A DNA stretch of 64,000 bases from Galbibacter orientalis DSM 19592 (GTDB taxonomy: Bacteria > Bacteroidota > Bacteroidia > Flavobacteriales > Flavobacteriaceae). Positions 9,191 to 15,012 of this stretch are shown here, piece after piece. Position 1 is the first letter of the stretch; each line of letters starts with the position of its first letter. The position numbers and the translations under genes were made by a program. The stretch covers positions 248,001 through 312,000 of the forward strand of contig NZ_JH651380.1 of NCBI RefSeq assembly GCF_000260115.1, given 5' to 3'. The notes beneath the pieces were generated by a model. The model was not told where the DNA came from and ran no database searches. It saw nothing but the letters and a program-made list of their open reading frames with translations.

Positions 9191-10180
9191 TTAATAGCAG
9201 TAACTCAAGCCAATTTCTTCTTTTACTTTATCCATAATTTCCATGAGTTGATGACTAAACTTATGAGTCATAATAGGACTTTCTGTTTTTCCACTGCGTA
9301 AAAGTTCGTTAAAATGAGCTATTTCAAAATTATATCCTAATGTATTTACATCGTAATCCTTGGTTGTCTGTTTTCCATCTGCATCAGTAAAAGTTACAGA
9401 AGTAGGTCTGTGAAATTGCGTATGTAATTTTATAGTTCCTTTTTCACATTTTATGGTAGCTTCTGTGGGAGTTTCTTCTTTTAATGTTGAAGAAAGCCTA
9501 GCAACAGCTCCATTTTTATAAGAAAAAATCATGTTACAAGAAGAGTCTGCTCCTGTTTCAAAAAAGGTGCCATTTGCTTGGATGTCATCTGGCTTGCCTA
9601 GAATAGACATTGCGCAAAAAATAGGATAGATTCCAATATCTAATAAACTTCCGCCACCTAATTGTTTGTCGAATAATCGAGTAGAGGCATCAAATTCACG
9701 ATAAAACCCAAAATCAGCATCAATAGATACTACTTTTCCATAATTCCCTTCCTCTAAAAAATTAAGAACATCTTGGTAATGAGGTAAAAAAGCAGTCCAT
9801 AACGCTTCCATTAACAAAACACCTTCTTGCTTTGCCGTTTGCAGCATCACATCTACATCGGCACTATTTAAAGCCAAGGGCTTTTCACAGAGTACCGCTT
9901 TTTTATTCAGTAAACAATCAATGGAATATGCTTTATGAAAAGTATGAGGTGTGGCAATGTAAATGGCATCAACGTTAGGATCTGTAATTAAATCCATATA
10001 ATTTCCATAGGCTACTTTAGCGCCATAGGTTTCTTTAAACTCTTCAGCCTTTTCTAGTGTTCTAGATGCAACAGCATATAATTCTGTATCCTTAACCGTT
10101 AGTAAGTCTTGAGCAAATTTAGTAGCAATACGACCAGGGGCTAGAATTCCCCATTTTATTTTTTTATTTCTTGATAGCAT
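9191..10180 (-). CDS. Gfo/Idh/MocA family NAD(P)-dependent oxidoreductase
   Basis: A 329-residue oxidoreductase. The N-terminal Rossmann fold reads KWGILAPGRIATKFAQDL, ATPHTFH is the second conserved block, and CEKPLALN contains the EKP motif with the catalytic-region lysine. The C-terminal alpha/beta domain begins near residue 130 (LWTAFLPHY). Family members oxidise sugars, inositols or trans-dihydrodiols. The gene overlaps the end of the upstream transporter gene by 17 nt (10164-10180), a sign of tight co-expression, so a substrate delivered by that transporter is plausible but not shown. Confidence 0.93.
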   Translation of the reverse strand: MLSRNKKIKWGILAPGRIATKFAQDLLTVKDTELYAVASRTLEKAEEFKETYGAKVAYGNYMDLITDPNVDAIYIATPHTFHKAYSIDCLLNKKAVLCEKPLALNSADVDVMLQTAKQEGVLLMEALWTAFLPHYQDVLNFLEEGNYGKVVSIDADFGFYREFDASTRLFDKQLGGGSLLDIGIYPIFCAMSILGKPDDIQANGTFFETGADSSCNMIFSYKNGAVARLSSTLKEETPTEATIKCEKGTIKLHTQFHRPTSVTFTDADGKQTTKDYDVNTLGYNFEIAHFNELLRSGKTESPIMTHKFSHQLMEIMDKVKEEIGLSYCY

Positions 10181-11891
10181 TGGTTGTTCTGTTTAAAATT
10201 TCTAAGATTATAGCAATAATAATGACCATGGCACAACCAATAAAGTTTAGCCATAAATATCCTAGTTTTTCATCTCCTGCATCATATCGATGAATGGCAA
10301 AATAGTAAATAAGGATGATGGCTATTTGTGTGACAATGGCGCTTATAAAAACGGCATTTCCACGAATAAATTTTATAAAAAATGCTATTAAAAATATTCC
10401 GAGTACATTTCCGTAGAAAATAGAACCGATAATATTTACTAATTGGATTAAATTATCTAAAAGCGAAGCAAAATTAGCGAACAAAATGGCTATAATCCCC
10501 CATCCAAATGTAAACCAACGAGTAGCATTTAAATAGTATTTTTCATCGTGTTCTTTCTTTTGTCTTCTTCTAAAAAGGTCAATGGTAGTAATGGTTCCTA
10601 AAGCATTTAATTCGGATGCTGTAGAAGACATGGCAGCCGAAAATATTACAGCTAACAATAACCCCATAAGTCCTGTTGGAATTTTATTCAGTATAAAATG
10701 TATAAAAACATAATCTTTATCGTTGGTTTCTAAATCTTCATCTACTTTTTGAATAAGAGCTTTAGCGTCTTGGCGACTTTTTATTTCTTTTTTATTGATA
10801 TCTTGAATTTGCTTTTTAGCAGCTACAATTAATTCGTAATCTTTAACATCTAAAACTGCGGAAAATCGCTCTTGAGCCATTTTTTTATCTTTTTCGAGCG
10901 CCAAATGTTGCTTTTCTAATTGCTGATATTGATCGGCATATTCCGATTGTTGTACCGCTTCTACTGCAGCAGGATTAAAATTTAAAGGAGAATGATTGTA
11001 TTGGTAATACACAAAAACCATAACTCCAACTAACAGTATAAAAAATTGCATCGGTACTTTAAACAGACCGTTAAAAATAAGTCCTAACTGACTTTCTCTA
11101 ACTGACTTCCCCGATAAATAGCGTTGTACCTGACTTTGGTCGGTTCCGAAATAGGCGAGGGCTAAAAAGAGGCCTCCCGTAATTCCACTCCAAAATGTAT
11201 AACGACTTTTAGGGTTTAAAGAGAAATCAAGGATGTTAAGTTTGTCGTTAGCACCCGCTATTTTCATAGCCTTACTAAAGGTTATATCTTCTGGGAGGTA
11301 ACTCATTACTAAATAAAAAGCCGTAAACATTCCTGTCATTATAACAAACATTTGCTGCTTTTGCGTAACACTTACCGCTTTTGTCCCACCAGAAACAGTA
11401 TATATTATTACCAAAATCCCAATAACAATATTTAGAGTTTTTGTTTCCCAGCCTAAAACCGCAGATAATATTATAGAAGGCGCATATATGGTAATTCCTG
11501 CAGCCAATCCACGTTGTATTAAAAAGAGAATGGCAGCTAAGGAACGTGTTTTTAAATCGAATCTATTTTCTAGGAATTCATAGGCAGTATAGACTTTTAA
11601 TTTATGATAAATAGGGACGAAGACCACACAGATAATTATCATGGCCAGTGGAAGTCCAAAGTAGAATTGCACAAACCCCATTCCGTCATGAAAAGCTTGT
11701 CCAGGAGTAGACAAGAAAGTAATAGCACTAGCCTGTGTTGCCATTACAGAAAGGCCAACGGTATACCATTTTGCCTCATTACCACCTAAAATATAGTCGG
11801 ATACGTTTTGACTTCCTTTGGTTTTTAAATAACCGTACCCTACAATAAATAGTAGGGTACCCGTTAGTACTATCCAATCGATTAATTCCAT
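10164..11891 (-). CDS. Sodium:solute symporter (SSS/SLC5 family) with large soluble insertion
   Basis: A 575-residue sodium-coupled transporter with about 13 hydrophobic helices. Recognisable parts are the N-terminal YLKTKGSQNVSDYILGG block, ATQASAITFLSTPGQAFHDGMGF in TM2, GTDQSQVQRYLSGKS and the FSAAMSSTASELNALGTI segment of the Na+ site helix. Unusual is a charged insertion of about 80 residues (roughly 310-385) rich in Glu, Lys and Gln with coiled-coil character, placed between two membrane helices. It is preceded by a 33-residue membrane peptide gene (4 nt gap) and overlaps the oxidoreductase gene behind it. Substrate unknown; sugar or amino-sugar is a guess from the neighbours. Confidence 0.92.
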   Translation of the reverse strand: MELIDWIVLTGTLLFIVGYGYLKTKGSQNVSDYILGGNEAKWYTVGLSVMATQASAITFLSTPGQAFHDGMGFVQFYFGLPLAMIIICVVFVPIYHKLKVYTAYEFLENRFDLKTRSLAAILFLIQRGLAAGITIYAPSIILSAVLGWETKTLNIVIGILVIIYTVSGGTKAVSVTQKQQMFVIMTGMFTAFYLVMSYLPEDITFSKAMKIAGANDKLNILDFSLNPKSRYTFWSGITGGLFLALAYFGTDQSQVQRYLSGKSVRESQLGLIFNGLFKVPMQFFILLVGVMVFVYYQYNHSPLNFNPAAVEAVQQSEYADQYQQLEKQHLALEKDKKMAQERFSAVLDVKDYELIVAAKKQIQDINKKEIKSRQDAKALIQKVDEDLETNDKDYVFIHFILNKIPTGLMGLLLAVIFSAAMSSTASELNALGTITTIDLFRRRQKKEHDEKYYLNATRWFTFGWGIIAILFANFASLLDNLIQLVNIIGSIFYGNVLGIFLIAFFIKFIRGNAVFISAIVTQIAIILIYYFAIHRYDAGDEKLGYLWLNFIGCAMVIIIAIILEILNRTTNAIKK

Positions 11892-11895
11892 AGTA

Positions 11896-11997
11896 CTATT
11901 TGTTTGAAATCATAATTAGATAAAAAACAAAAATGTAAATCGCATTCATAATCAATACAATAGAATACTCTCTTTTCCAAACAAACTTACTAAGCAT
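11896..11997 (-). CDS. 33-residue single-span membrane peptide, putative small partner of the SSS transporter
   Basis: Not an annotated-size gene, but well supported by position. It starts 2 nt after the PIG-L stop codon and ends 4 nt before the transporter start. An AAAGGA ribosome-binding sequence lies directly upstream of its ATG (unusual in this genome). The product starts MLSKFVWKREYS, is followed by an uninterrupted hydrophobic stretch of about 18 residues (IVLIMNAIYIFVFYLIMI) and ends SNK. The basic N terminus suggests the amino end is cytoplasmic. I recall short membrane peptides next to SSS genes in other Bacteroidota, but cannot verify homologues. A regulatory or stabilising subunit role is inference. 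Confidence 0.65.
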   Translation of the reverse strand: MLSKFVWKREYSIVLIMNAIYIFVFYLIMISNK

Positions 11998-11999
11998 GA

Positions 12000-14528
12000 C
12001 TATCCTTTTATTGGGTTTAAATTTGTACTTTCTTCTTTTCCAATAGAAAGCATATTGGCAAATATTTTATAAGCCCCTGGAACACCAGCAGGGAGTTCTC
12101 TAAAGAAACTCAATCCTGAGTAAATATAATATCCTTTTCCATATGGAGCAACCAATAAGCTACCGTCTTTTTTACTTTCCCCTTTGTCGTGCATCGAAAA
12201 AATTGAGGTAAATTCCTCTCCCCATTTGTCAGGGAAATATAATCCTCGTTCTTGTACCCAACCAGTAAAATCGTTTTGAGATATTTTGTTGGGAGTATTT
12301 AATAACGGATTGTTTGGTGCGTTAAAAGTAACTTCAGCATTTTCATCGGTTACACGGTCTCGAGATAATTGCAACAAATAGGGTGCCAGATTATCCATTC
12401 CAAGTCCGTTTCTCCCGGCAGTATTATATTGAACAATTAAATTGCCACCTTCCTTTACATAATTTAAAAGAATATGTTGTTTAAATTTAAGAGATTCATG
12501 AATATTATATGCTCTAATCCCCATTACTACTGCATCGAAATTTTTTAAGTATCCACTACTAATATTTTCTGGCTGTATTACAGTTACAGTATATCCTATT
12601 TGACGTAAACTTTCTGGTACTTCATCTCCAGCACCAGCAACATAAGCAATGTTTTCTCCTGTTTTCTTTATGTTTAAACGCACCACTTTAAAACTAGCAG
12701 GAAGTAAAACCGATTGCGTAGGAATATGGTCGTAAGCTATGGTTACTAGTTCCTGAGTATATTCTTTTCCATCTATTTTTATGATAGGTGTAATAGTTTC
12801 CTGATTTTCATCTGCTGGAGGGGTTACTGTAAAAATAACTGTTTTTGTATCACCCTTTTTAGCAATGGAAAAATCTATTTGTTGAGGACTCACATTCCAT
12901 CCGCTATTGTATTTTAAATGTATGTTTCCTGAAATATTATCTGCTCCAGAAGTAATGGTTACTGGAATGTCCTTAGATTTTTCATCAGAAAAAATAATTA
13001 CTTTATTAGCTACAGAAGTGGAAACCCTAGGAAGAATTTCAAAGGGTTGATAAATTTCACCTTTATCAGGCTTTGAAAATTTATAAACGATATTTTTTTC
13101 AAAAGGAATACTAACTCCTTCGATATTTATGGTGAATGTAGCTTTAACTAATCTAGGAGTTTCTGGTTTTCCTCTTAGTAATTGCGGCGCTTTGTACATT
13201 CCTAATGTACCTTCTTCTTTTAACCAATAGGGTGCTGTGTATTCACTATTTTCAGGAATAGTAATTTTTTGATTGGTAGTTATAAATTTATTGTTTTCTA
13301 ATTTTTTACTGATAATTTGTACAACATCACTAGGAGAGATACTTATGTTTTTAAGCGTTATATTGGAGGACGATCTATTAATAATTGAAGCGTTAATACT
13401 GATGTTTTCTCCAGGTACAGCAGAAGCTTGTGCAGTTGTTGCTTCTATAAATAAGCCGCTACAGGCTTCTATAATTTTTTTAATCTCTTCTAATTTAATT
13501 TCCCGCCAATAATCATCTTTTAAATTAGAAATTAATTGATAGGCTTTTGCTAAATCTGCAAGATGTTCTGATGGATTTTTAAAATTGAAATTAGCTTCTA
13601 TATCTAATAATATTTCGGCAATAGCTTCTCCGCCTTCTACACGCCCCCAAGTAGTATTAATACCATCAAAAATAGTATTGTTTCTTGGAAAACTTCCTTT
13701 TAACAGTTCAATATATTCTTTTTCAGAACCACGGGCAGAAATCCCACCAAATCCCTGACTTAAATGTTGGCTACGAGCAATGGAAGCAATCTCGTTATTA
13801 CTTTGCCCAAGTGTAGGGTAGTAGGTGCCAATATCTACACTTAGCATTTTTGATTTATTGGCCTCTTCAAATTTTTCCTGACTTCCATAGAACCACCAAG
13901 AAGTATTAAAAAACATACGTTCTGGCTGCCAAAGGTCTGTATATTTTAATTGTTCTGGATAGCTATTTTTATCATTCACAAGGTCAAATGCTTCAACGCT
14001 TAACATGGCCGAAGAAGTATGGTGACCGTGTGTTGTACCCGGACTTCTATGGTCAAAACGGTTGATAATTACATCGGGTTTAAAGTTTCTAATAACCCAA
14101 ACAACATCAGAAAGTACCTCGTCTTTATTCCAAATCTCTAAGGTTTCATCTGGATGTTTCGAAAACCCAAAGTCGTTAGCACGCGAGAAAAATTGCTCGC
14201 CACCGTCCACACGTCTAGCCGCTAGAAGCTCTTGAGTTCTTAAAACTCCTAAAAGTTCTCGTAATTCTGCTCCTATTAAATTCTGCCCTCCATCTCCTCT
14301 TGTAAGCGATAAATAGCCAGTTCTTGCCTTTACTTCATTAGAAAGATAAGAAATTAACCGCGTGTTTTCATCATCGGGGTGTGCGGCAATATAGAGCGCT
14401 GTTCCAAGGAAATTAAGCTTTTGTACTGCTTGATAAATATCAGCAGAAGAATAGGTTTTTGGCTTCTGTGAATACGTAGAAAATGTAAATACTAATCCAA
14501 TAAAAAGAAAGGATAATATTTTTTGCAT
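12000..14528 (-). CDS. Secreted PIG-L family deacetylase (large multidomain)
   Basis: About 842 residues. I chose the ATG at 14528 rather than the upstream one at 14609 because the product then begins MQKILSFLFIGLVFTFSTYSQ, a clean signal peptide. The N-terminal LmbE/PIG-L domain shows AAHPDDENTRL (HPDD zinc/catalytic motif) and the distal ligand region FDHRSPGTTHGHHTSS. The family hydrolyses N-acetyl groups on amino-sugar conjugates. Behind it lie beta-rich modules (NPCBM/NEW2-like, inferred from TSGADNISGNIHLKYNSGWNV) and a C-terminal ThuA/GATase-like part (VMGIRAYN, EGGNLIVQYNT). It heads an operon with the small peptide, transporter and oxidoreductase. Confidence 0.88.
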   Translation of the reverse strand: MQKILSFLFIGLVFTFSTYSQKPKTYSSADIYQAVQKLNFLGTALYIAAHPDDENTRLISYLSNEVKARTGYLSLTRGDGGQNLIGAELRELLGVLRTQELLAARRVDGGEQFFSRANDFGFSKHPDETLEIWNKDEVLSDVVWVIRNFKPDVIINRFDHRSPGTTHGHHTSSAMLSVEAFDLVNDKNSYPEQLKYTDLWQPERMFFNTSWWFYGSQEKFEEANKSKMLSVDIGTYYPTLGQSNNEIASIARSQHLSQGFGGISARGSEKEYIELLKGSFPRNNTIFDGINTTWGRVEGGEAIAEILLDIEANFNFKNPSEHLADLAKAYQLISNLKDDYWREIKLEEIKKIIEACSGLFIEATTAQASAVPGENISINASIINRSSSNITLKNISISPSDVVQIISKKLENNKFITTNQKITIPENSEYTAPYWLKEEGTLGMYKAPQLLRGKPETPRLVKATFTINIEGVSIPFEKNIVYKFSKPDKGEIYQPFEILPRVSTSVANKVIIFSDEKSKDIPVTITSGADNISGNIHLKYNSGWNVSPQQIDFSIAKKGDTKTVIFTVTPPADENQETITPIIKIDGKEYTQELVTIAYDHIPTQSVLLPASFKVVRLNIKKTGENIAYVAGAGDEVPESLRQIGYTVTVIQPENISSGYLKNFDAVVMGIRAYNIHESLKFKQHILLNYVKEGGNLIVQYNTAGRNGLGMDNLAPYLLQLSRDRVTDENAEVTFNAPNNPLLNTPNKISQNDFTGWVQERGLYFPDKWGEEFTSIFSMHDKGESKKDGSLLVAPYGKGYYIYSGLSFFRELPAGVPGAYKIFANMLSIGKEESTNLNPIKG

Positions 14529-14766
14529 GCTATAAGTTTTAGGTATTTGTTCAAATATAGAAATAATTGTTGGTTGCCCGTTAGTTGTTGCAACGGAAAA
14601 AAAGTACAACTTTAAAAGTTTTAAAATAAGTTGTATGATTTATTCGATAATCAAGGTTTAACTTTCTTACACTTCCGTTGGAGTGCTTTGTTTTTTGAGT
14701 TGTTAAAACTTATCTCTATTATTTTTATGCCTAGAACTGTTTTTATCTTACTAAGGATAAAGCATA

Positions 14767-15012
14767 TTAATTACATATTTTGTCTTCTAAAATACCACAT
14801 TCAATTCCTTTAGATTTTAAGAGTTGTATAATAGAATCAGAATTAATAAAAGTTCCTTCAATTCTTAAAATCGAATGCCCGCAGGGATAGGGTTTATTAT
14901 AATCTTCTAGATCAAAATTAATTTCTAAACTAGGATAATTTCCCTCTAATAGCATAAGAATTTCTTTTGAGAGAATTTCAGACTGAATGTTTGTCATAAA
15001 TACTTCAACCAT
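14767..15012 (-). CDS. Small HMA-like protein lacking the CxxC motif
   Basis: An 81-residue protein whose predicted pattern (strand VEVFMTNI, helix SEILSKEILMLLEGNYP, strand LEINFDLED, strand HSILRIEGT, helix SDSIIQLLKSKGI, strand CGIL) fits the ferredoxin-like fold of heavy-metal-associated domains. The metal-binding Cys-x-x-Cys is absent; a Cys-Gly-His sits in the middle instead. It starts 1 nt after the flavoprotein gene and is therefore in its operon and likely under the same Fur-type control. Function unknown. Confidence 0.65.
   Translation of the reverse strand: MVEVFMTNIQSEILSKEILMLLEGNYPSLEINFDLEDYNKPYPCGHSILRIEGTFINSDSIIQLLKSKGIECGILEDKICN

Follow-up and report, generated by a model that had tools for sequence, protein, structure and literature searches.

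The 33-residue peptide encoded directly before the sodium:solute symporter (SSS) gene of Galbibacter orientalis DSM 19592 is very probably a one-helix subunit dedicated to a single SSS subfamily. The initial annotation of the window, meaning the whole 64,000-nucleotide stretch of DNA analysed, had proposed a small transporter subunit or regulator, and this proposal is supported by comparative co-occurrence, by retention of the peptide in trans and by a conserved helix face, with a subunit being the best reading. The peptide has one transmembrane (TM) helix and is both linked to and co-inherited with a transporter, as is expected of a one-helix accessory transporter subunit. The features of the locus are as follows:

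11896..11997, minus strand: gene of the 33-aa one-TM peptide, the proposed small SSS subunit, with the face residues W7, Y11, V14, N18, Y21 and F25
10164..11891, minus strand: SSS gene, 575 aa, the conserved partner (PF00474; TIGR00813)
12000..14609, minus strand: PIG-L family deacetylase, mechanical ORF (PF02585)
9191..10180, minus strand: GFO/IDH/MocA oxidoreductase gene, into which the end of the SSS gene extends
10724..10997, minus strand: region coding for the helical insertion of the SSS, residues about 299-390, between TM7 and TM8
12003..12008, minus strand: AAAGGA, Lys-Gly codons at the PIG-L C terminus

Read in the minus-strand frame from 11997 to 11896 of the window, the gene translates as MLSKFVWKREYSIVLIMNAIYIFVFYLIMISNK; the strand had been left unstated in the initial annotation. 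The PIG-L stop is a TAG at 12002-12000 and the peptide ATG begins 2 nt later, while 11896 is the last position of the peptide stop, with 4 nt between it and the SSS ATG at 11891, in agreement with the earlier description of an ATG 2 nt past the PIG-L stop and 33 codons that end 4 nt before the SSS start. The peptide has a basic N terminus and a single hydrophobic stretch, and the basic N terminus and one TM helix described earlier are indeed seen in the translation, in the hydropathy and as one helix in a model. The true start of the PIG-L gene is probably an internal ATG preceding a signal peptide, and the GFO/IDH/MocA gene is a probable member of the operon. Elsewhere in the window an 81-aa minus-strand ORF with no Pfam match lies at 14767-15012, between the PIG-L gene and a pyridine nucleotide-disulphide oxidoreductase gene.

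Comparison of related sequences indicates that the peptide frame is a protein-coding gene under purifying selection. Across seven Galbibacter genomes the peptide has a pooled pN/pS of 0.13 over 21 pairs, compared with 0.11 over 15 equal-length pairs for the SSS; neither proportion is corrected, and synonymous sites are close to saturation. The initial annotation had suggested a dN/dS test, and the ratio found for the peptide points to purifying selection. The peptide of genome G250 is identical, with 6 synonymous differences, and over 70 loci of the family Flavobacteriaceae the divergence at codon positions 1, 2 and 3 is 0.39, 0.18 and 0.59. W7, Y11, N18, Y21 and F25 do not vary among 51 family peptides and V14 hardly does, and in a wider set, from which 2 of 209 unique pairs were dropped for having no recognisable core, the W and the Y are each retained in 206 of 207 sequences. 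Where the initial annotation had envisaged that relatives might lack the frame or its hydrophobic pattern, both are clearly kept.

The initial annotation had further noted an AAAGGA directly upstream of the ATG; the string is present, at 12008-12003, and its role as a ribosome-binding site does not stand, the string being probably PIG-L coding sequence. Among 72 loci, 70 from the family and two from family f19, a Shine-Dalgarno-like string is found before the peptide at 26 and before the SSS at none. The PIG-L C terminus was recognised in 52 of the 72 loci, and by hand count 36 of the 52 end in Lys-Gly. In 11 of these 36 there is an overlap of at least 4 nt between the PIG-L stop and the assigned start of the peptide, leaving the AAAGG too near that start, or beyond it. 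The Lys-Gly C terminus of PIG-L is thus conserved also where the peptide start overlaps PIG-L. Ribosomes of the Flavobacteriia are reported, in the accessible text of PMC9976891, not to recognise the Shine-Dalgarno sequence, and the start sites of F. johnsoniae are described in an excerpt of PMC6847099 as favouring A at -3. Given that the string consists of Lys-Gly codons of PIG-L, and that the Shine-Dalgarno sequence is reportedly not recognised in Flavobacteriia, AAAGGA is unlikely to be a functional site of this kind.

Within the Flavobacteriaceae, the SSS ortholog is present in 220 of 249 genomes (E <= 1e-100) and the peptide profile matches 208 of 249 (E <= 0.01); when the two listings were cross-read by eye, the profile matches fell in 208 of the 220 SSS-bearing genomes and in 0 of the 29 SSS-less ones. 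Ten of the 12 SSS genomes that lack a profile match have a diverged short TM ORF on the site: eight of these are 28-33 residues long and have lost the W, six of the eight retaining Y-x6-N-x2-Y, and the other two are of a P-P-x-[FL]-x-x-W type. The shortened, W-less peptide of 28-33 aa (L298-L304, L307) occurs in eight family genomes of 1.7-2.7 Mb. At the remaining two loci, L297 and L308, no peptide was found at the site and PIG-L abuts the SSS gene. The peptide is also present in 80 of 80 named loci, this set, the best 80 among at least 587, being made up of close relatives. Flavobacterium relatives such as L256 also carry it. Adjacency was read directly in the 70 family loci, the 80 named loci and 12 more, and the peptide gene usually lies just upstream of, or overlaps, the SSS start. 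Most genomes give a single profile match, the G. orientalis genome having one copy, and PIG-L, peptide and SSS are gained or lost together as one set across the family.

Across the phylum, the family profile matches 59 of 296 genomes (E <= 0.05) and 117 of the 296 have the SSS (E <= 1e-50). Of 30 genomes with out-of-family peptide matches, 20 were fetched, and the match lies directly before an SSS ortholog (37-59% identical) in 18 and not in two; at one of the two, L109, the SSS is elsewhere in the genome, and the other match, at L116, looks like chance. Among the remaining 10 genomes, the match adjoins the SSS by coordinates in G341 and G441 and is separated from it in G311, and seven have weak partial matches away from the SSS that are probably chance. 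A further 60 out-of-family loci were selected by SSS position alone, the 18 SSS loci chosen through peptide matches being left out. An adjacent one-helix peptide scoring above 5 bits in a refined profile is found at 46 of these 60 distant loci, the peptide is elsewhere in the genome for five (L166, L170-L173), an unscored short TM ORF stands on the site in six (L162-L165, L169, L176) and no peptide was found for three (L138, L154, L155). Scored with the unrefined family profile, 26 of the 60 distant sites exceed 5 bits, compared with 3 of the 753 remaining short hydrophobic ORFs from the same loci. With the refined profile the counts are 45 of 60 against 4 of 753 (ORFs above 150 aa excluded), a result to be read with the fact that this profile was trained for four rounds on ORFs from the site itself, the untrained profile giving the lower figure of 26 of 60. 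The six unscored ORFs, which lie before SSS genes in other families and mostly lack W-x3-Y, are candidate strongly diverged peptides.

No peptide was detectable in five SSS-bearing genomes (those of L138, L154, L155, L297 and L308), and a whole-genome search of G402 gave no convincing match. The existence of such genomes means that some members of the SSS subfamily work without the peptide or have a replacement for it. Genome G557 has two peptide-SSS pairs, at C1:21472 (covered by L114) and at C1:3845727, one of the SSS copies having an in-frame TAG. No plasmid record with this SSS was found at E 1e-60, and no natural fusion of peptide and SSS was recognised in the loci read.

Given that the frame usually abuts or overlaps the SSS start, its translation might matter in cis, as a leader or coupling ORF for the translation or regulation of the SSS, with the product itself being irrelevant. 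This scenario is highly unlikely for several reasons: purifying selection acts at the level of amino acids, conservation follows one helix face, and spacers of 37-88 nt separate the two genes in L112, L128, L139, L142, L147, L156 and L272. Furthermore, the peptide is kept in five genomes in which the SSS is 15-108 kb away. In four of these (G300, G311, G326 and G371, from one genus of another class) the distance is about 15 kb and the peptide stands beside a gene that is presumably WbqC-like. In the fifth, G538, peptide and SSS lie about 108 kb apart on the same contig, and the two are adjacent in its genus-mate G546. No SSS or PIG-L similarity was found in the 1.5-kb flanks of the separated peptides. 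Retention of the peptide at 15-108 kb from the SSS implies that its product matters and argues against a leader that acts in cis.

The nature of the conserved residues is likewise informative. Information per alignment column peaks every 3-4 residues, with a helical moment at 100 degrees of 12.9 (permutation p 0.0001, or 0.0003 without the first five columns), and the pattern along the helix is W-x3-Y-x2-V-x3-N-x2-Y-x3-F. Such periodic conservation indicates one conserved helix face, as expected of a helix that packs on protein. A membrane factor not bound to the SSS and in the operon by chance, be it a signal peptide, a membrane-stress peptide or one of a type I toxin-like kind, would generally resemble the peptide in size and composition, but is very improbable in view of the near one-to-one distribution with one SSS subfamily, the stripe of conserved aromatic and Asn residues, the single profile match in most genomes and the lack of any consistent match to a known family. 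The G. orientalis peptide itself has no Pfam or NCBIfam family match. Among the matches listed for 51 and a further 50 members there is no DUF485, DUF997 or DUF4212 model and no MetS-type model, one of these scans listing 25 of 32 families, and the partner is an SSS and not an NSS transporter. Weak Pfam and NCBIfam matches (DUF2976, FixQ, AmaP and others) were rejected as chance, the best E being about 0.003 and each family reaching at most 6 of the 51 members or 3 of the other 50. Profile searches against PDB chains, which have low power for such short sequences, gave no credible match and no MAP17, and in the open-licence literature no paper was found whose title or abstract opening treats the peptide. 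The description of the peptide as unannotated is based on the missing family models.

The PIG-L deacetylase is the other candidate partner. By tblastn it lies upstream at every one of the 70 family loci; at 32 of the 60 distant loci it is no more than 400 nt from the SSS start, and at 8 more it is within the fetched stretch. This linkage of PIG-L and SSS (70/70 family and 40/60 outside loci) suggests a shared pathway. In addition, PIG-L was not found at E 1e-60 in 27 of the 29 SSS-less family genomes, the other two having fragments. Given these two observations, the family table alone cannot separate SSS from PIG-L, and the peptide might be a subunit or regulator of the deacetylase and not of the SSS. 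There is very little probability of this, for three reasons. First, no PIG-L was found at E 1e-20 in any of the 19 f37 genomes, which belong to another class, nor in G553 (the single f64 genome), all of which keep SSS and peptide. Second, in six genomes (G292, G444, G455, G488, G512 and G546) PIG-L is elsewhere in the genome and the peptide remains by the SSS. Third, PIG-L still directly precedes the SSS at the five peptide-less loci. The genomes without PIG-L, the loci with PIG-L elsewhere and the separated peptides together identify the SSS as the partner: PIG-L is a frequent but dispensable companion and the SSS the constant one. The peptide was absent at 5 of 5 sibling SSS genes in the same genome (a sixth, weaker sibling being left out), two of which have an unrelated, uncounted hydrophobic ORF 107 and 116 nt upstream. 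Finally, that the frame is a spurious ORF, 33-codon frames being common within the window, is contradicted by selection, conservation and profile controls and has next to no probability.

The partner of the proposed subunit is an SSS protein by profile, scoring 133.8 bits against PF00474 (cut-off 22.8) and 245.7 against TIGR00813 (cut-off 184). A model of the ortholog from L142 aligns with SiaT (5nva; Z 40.5, rmsd 2.2, 464 aligned), indicating an SSS/LeuT fold, also matches NIS, SMCT1 and SGLT1/2, and contains 13 TM helices (TM0-TM12, counted by eye). The Foldseek and VIA rows align the SSS part; one VIA row (DMT1, 9f6n) nominally begins at model residue 2 and is taken as a shifted alignment. 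The initial annotation's additional insertion is confirmed at residues about 299-390; in the ortholog model it is helical, comprises about 90-100 residues and lies between TM7 and TM8, which from the general topology of SSS proteins would be periplasmic.

For structure prediction, the L142 peptide and SSS were joined in frame as a single chain, read through the stop with a 15-residue linker, and modelled with AlphaFold2; the alignment used all in-frame loci but L162 and L165 (39 of 41), together with 52 of the 100 SSS-only loci. The fusion reached a pLDDT of 91.0 and a pTM of 0.90, with the peptide helix at about 93-95 and the linker mostly below 50, the corresponding values for the SSS modelled alone on an identical set of 91 rows being 87.7 and 0.86. 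All five fusion models (88.1-91.0) are above all five SSS-alone models (84.4-87.7), in a comparison of one run each in which the helix is kept close to the SSS by the fusion itself. The largest gains, compared by eye in 10-residue blocks, are at SSS residues about 21-40, 51-60, 161-190 and 471-480. This gain in confidence fits a bound helix. Coupling analysis was conducted on 207 peptide-SSS pairs (about 90 effective sequences), and the top scores beat all 12 within-cluster re-pairings, although this null is too lenient, given that it breaks phylogeny inside a 125-member cluster. The pairs p3-S28, p3-S183 and p18/p22/p23-S218..S220 fit a helix that runs beside TM0/TM5, its N terminus inside and its C terminus outside, and other top pairs (p14-S568, p18-S92) are topologically inconsistent; the couplings thus give weak hints that the helix may dock along TM0/TM5.

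Given the distribution of charge, the subunit would insert with a cytoplasmic N terminus and a periplasmic C terminus. Its conserved face would then pack against the symporter, presumably by direct binding, and this packing may stabilise assembly or the working conformations of the SSS, by analogy with MAP17, which does so for human SGLT2, and with MetS, which probably does so for MetP. The PIG-L and GFO/IDH/MocA neighbours suggest that the substrate could be an amino-sugar-like product.

Human MAP17 has the opposite orientation and a PDZ motif. In the accessible text of PMC10803289, MAP17 is a single helix that is required for SGLT2 transport and contacts TM13 of SGLT2. As far as that text goes, MAP17 (PDZK1IP1) is a single TM helix needed by a transporter of the SSS fold, which the SSS described here shares, and the modelled SSS ortholog, with its 13 TMs, aligns to SGLT2 up to residue 549-550, whereas the SGLT2 helix contacted by MAP17 is its TM13. 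The comparison with MetS draws on its helix number and on its role as the small subunit of MetP. MetPS of Corynebacterium is, in the excerpted text of PMC3219685, a two-subunit NSS-family system that imports methionine and alanine. As here, a small partner is encoded beside a LeuT-fold sodium symporter, but the transporter family and the phylum are different. Small membrane proteins are also encoded beside bacterial SSS genes in the cases of YjcH (DUF485) with ActP, YhdT (DUF997) with PanF and the DUF4212 proteins, which adjoin the SSS gene like the peptide and are larger and mostly of two helices. The conserved residues of KdpF, AcrZ and CydX differ from those of the peptide. These three are described, in the part of PMC10903887 that was available, as small one-helix subunits of other membrane complexes. 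On that description they are like the peptide in size and in a likely stabilising role, with unrelated partners.

These comparisons raise a broader possibility, speculative and somewhat unlikely as a whole, that much of the Bacteroidota has an obligate two-part SSS whose second part, a helix of about 28-55 residues, is maybe the smallest SSS subunit known. The peptide would then be an independent bacterial counterpart of MAP17 that may supply a missing helix in trans to a 13-helix SSS, so controlling its assembly or gating.

A conserved protein family for which no Pfam or NCBIfam model was found is thus tied to one SSS subfamily. If the peptide is a subunit, studies of this SSS conducted without it may fail or mislead, and the pair would offer a minimal bacterial system in which to ask why an SSS needs an accessory helix, in the way that SGLT2 depends on MAP17. 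The genomes in which peptide and SSS are separated, together with the few SSS that are without a peptide, are natural experiments.
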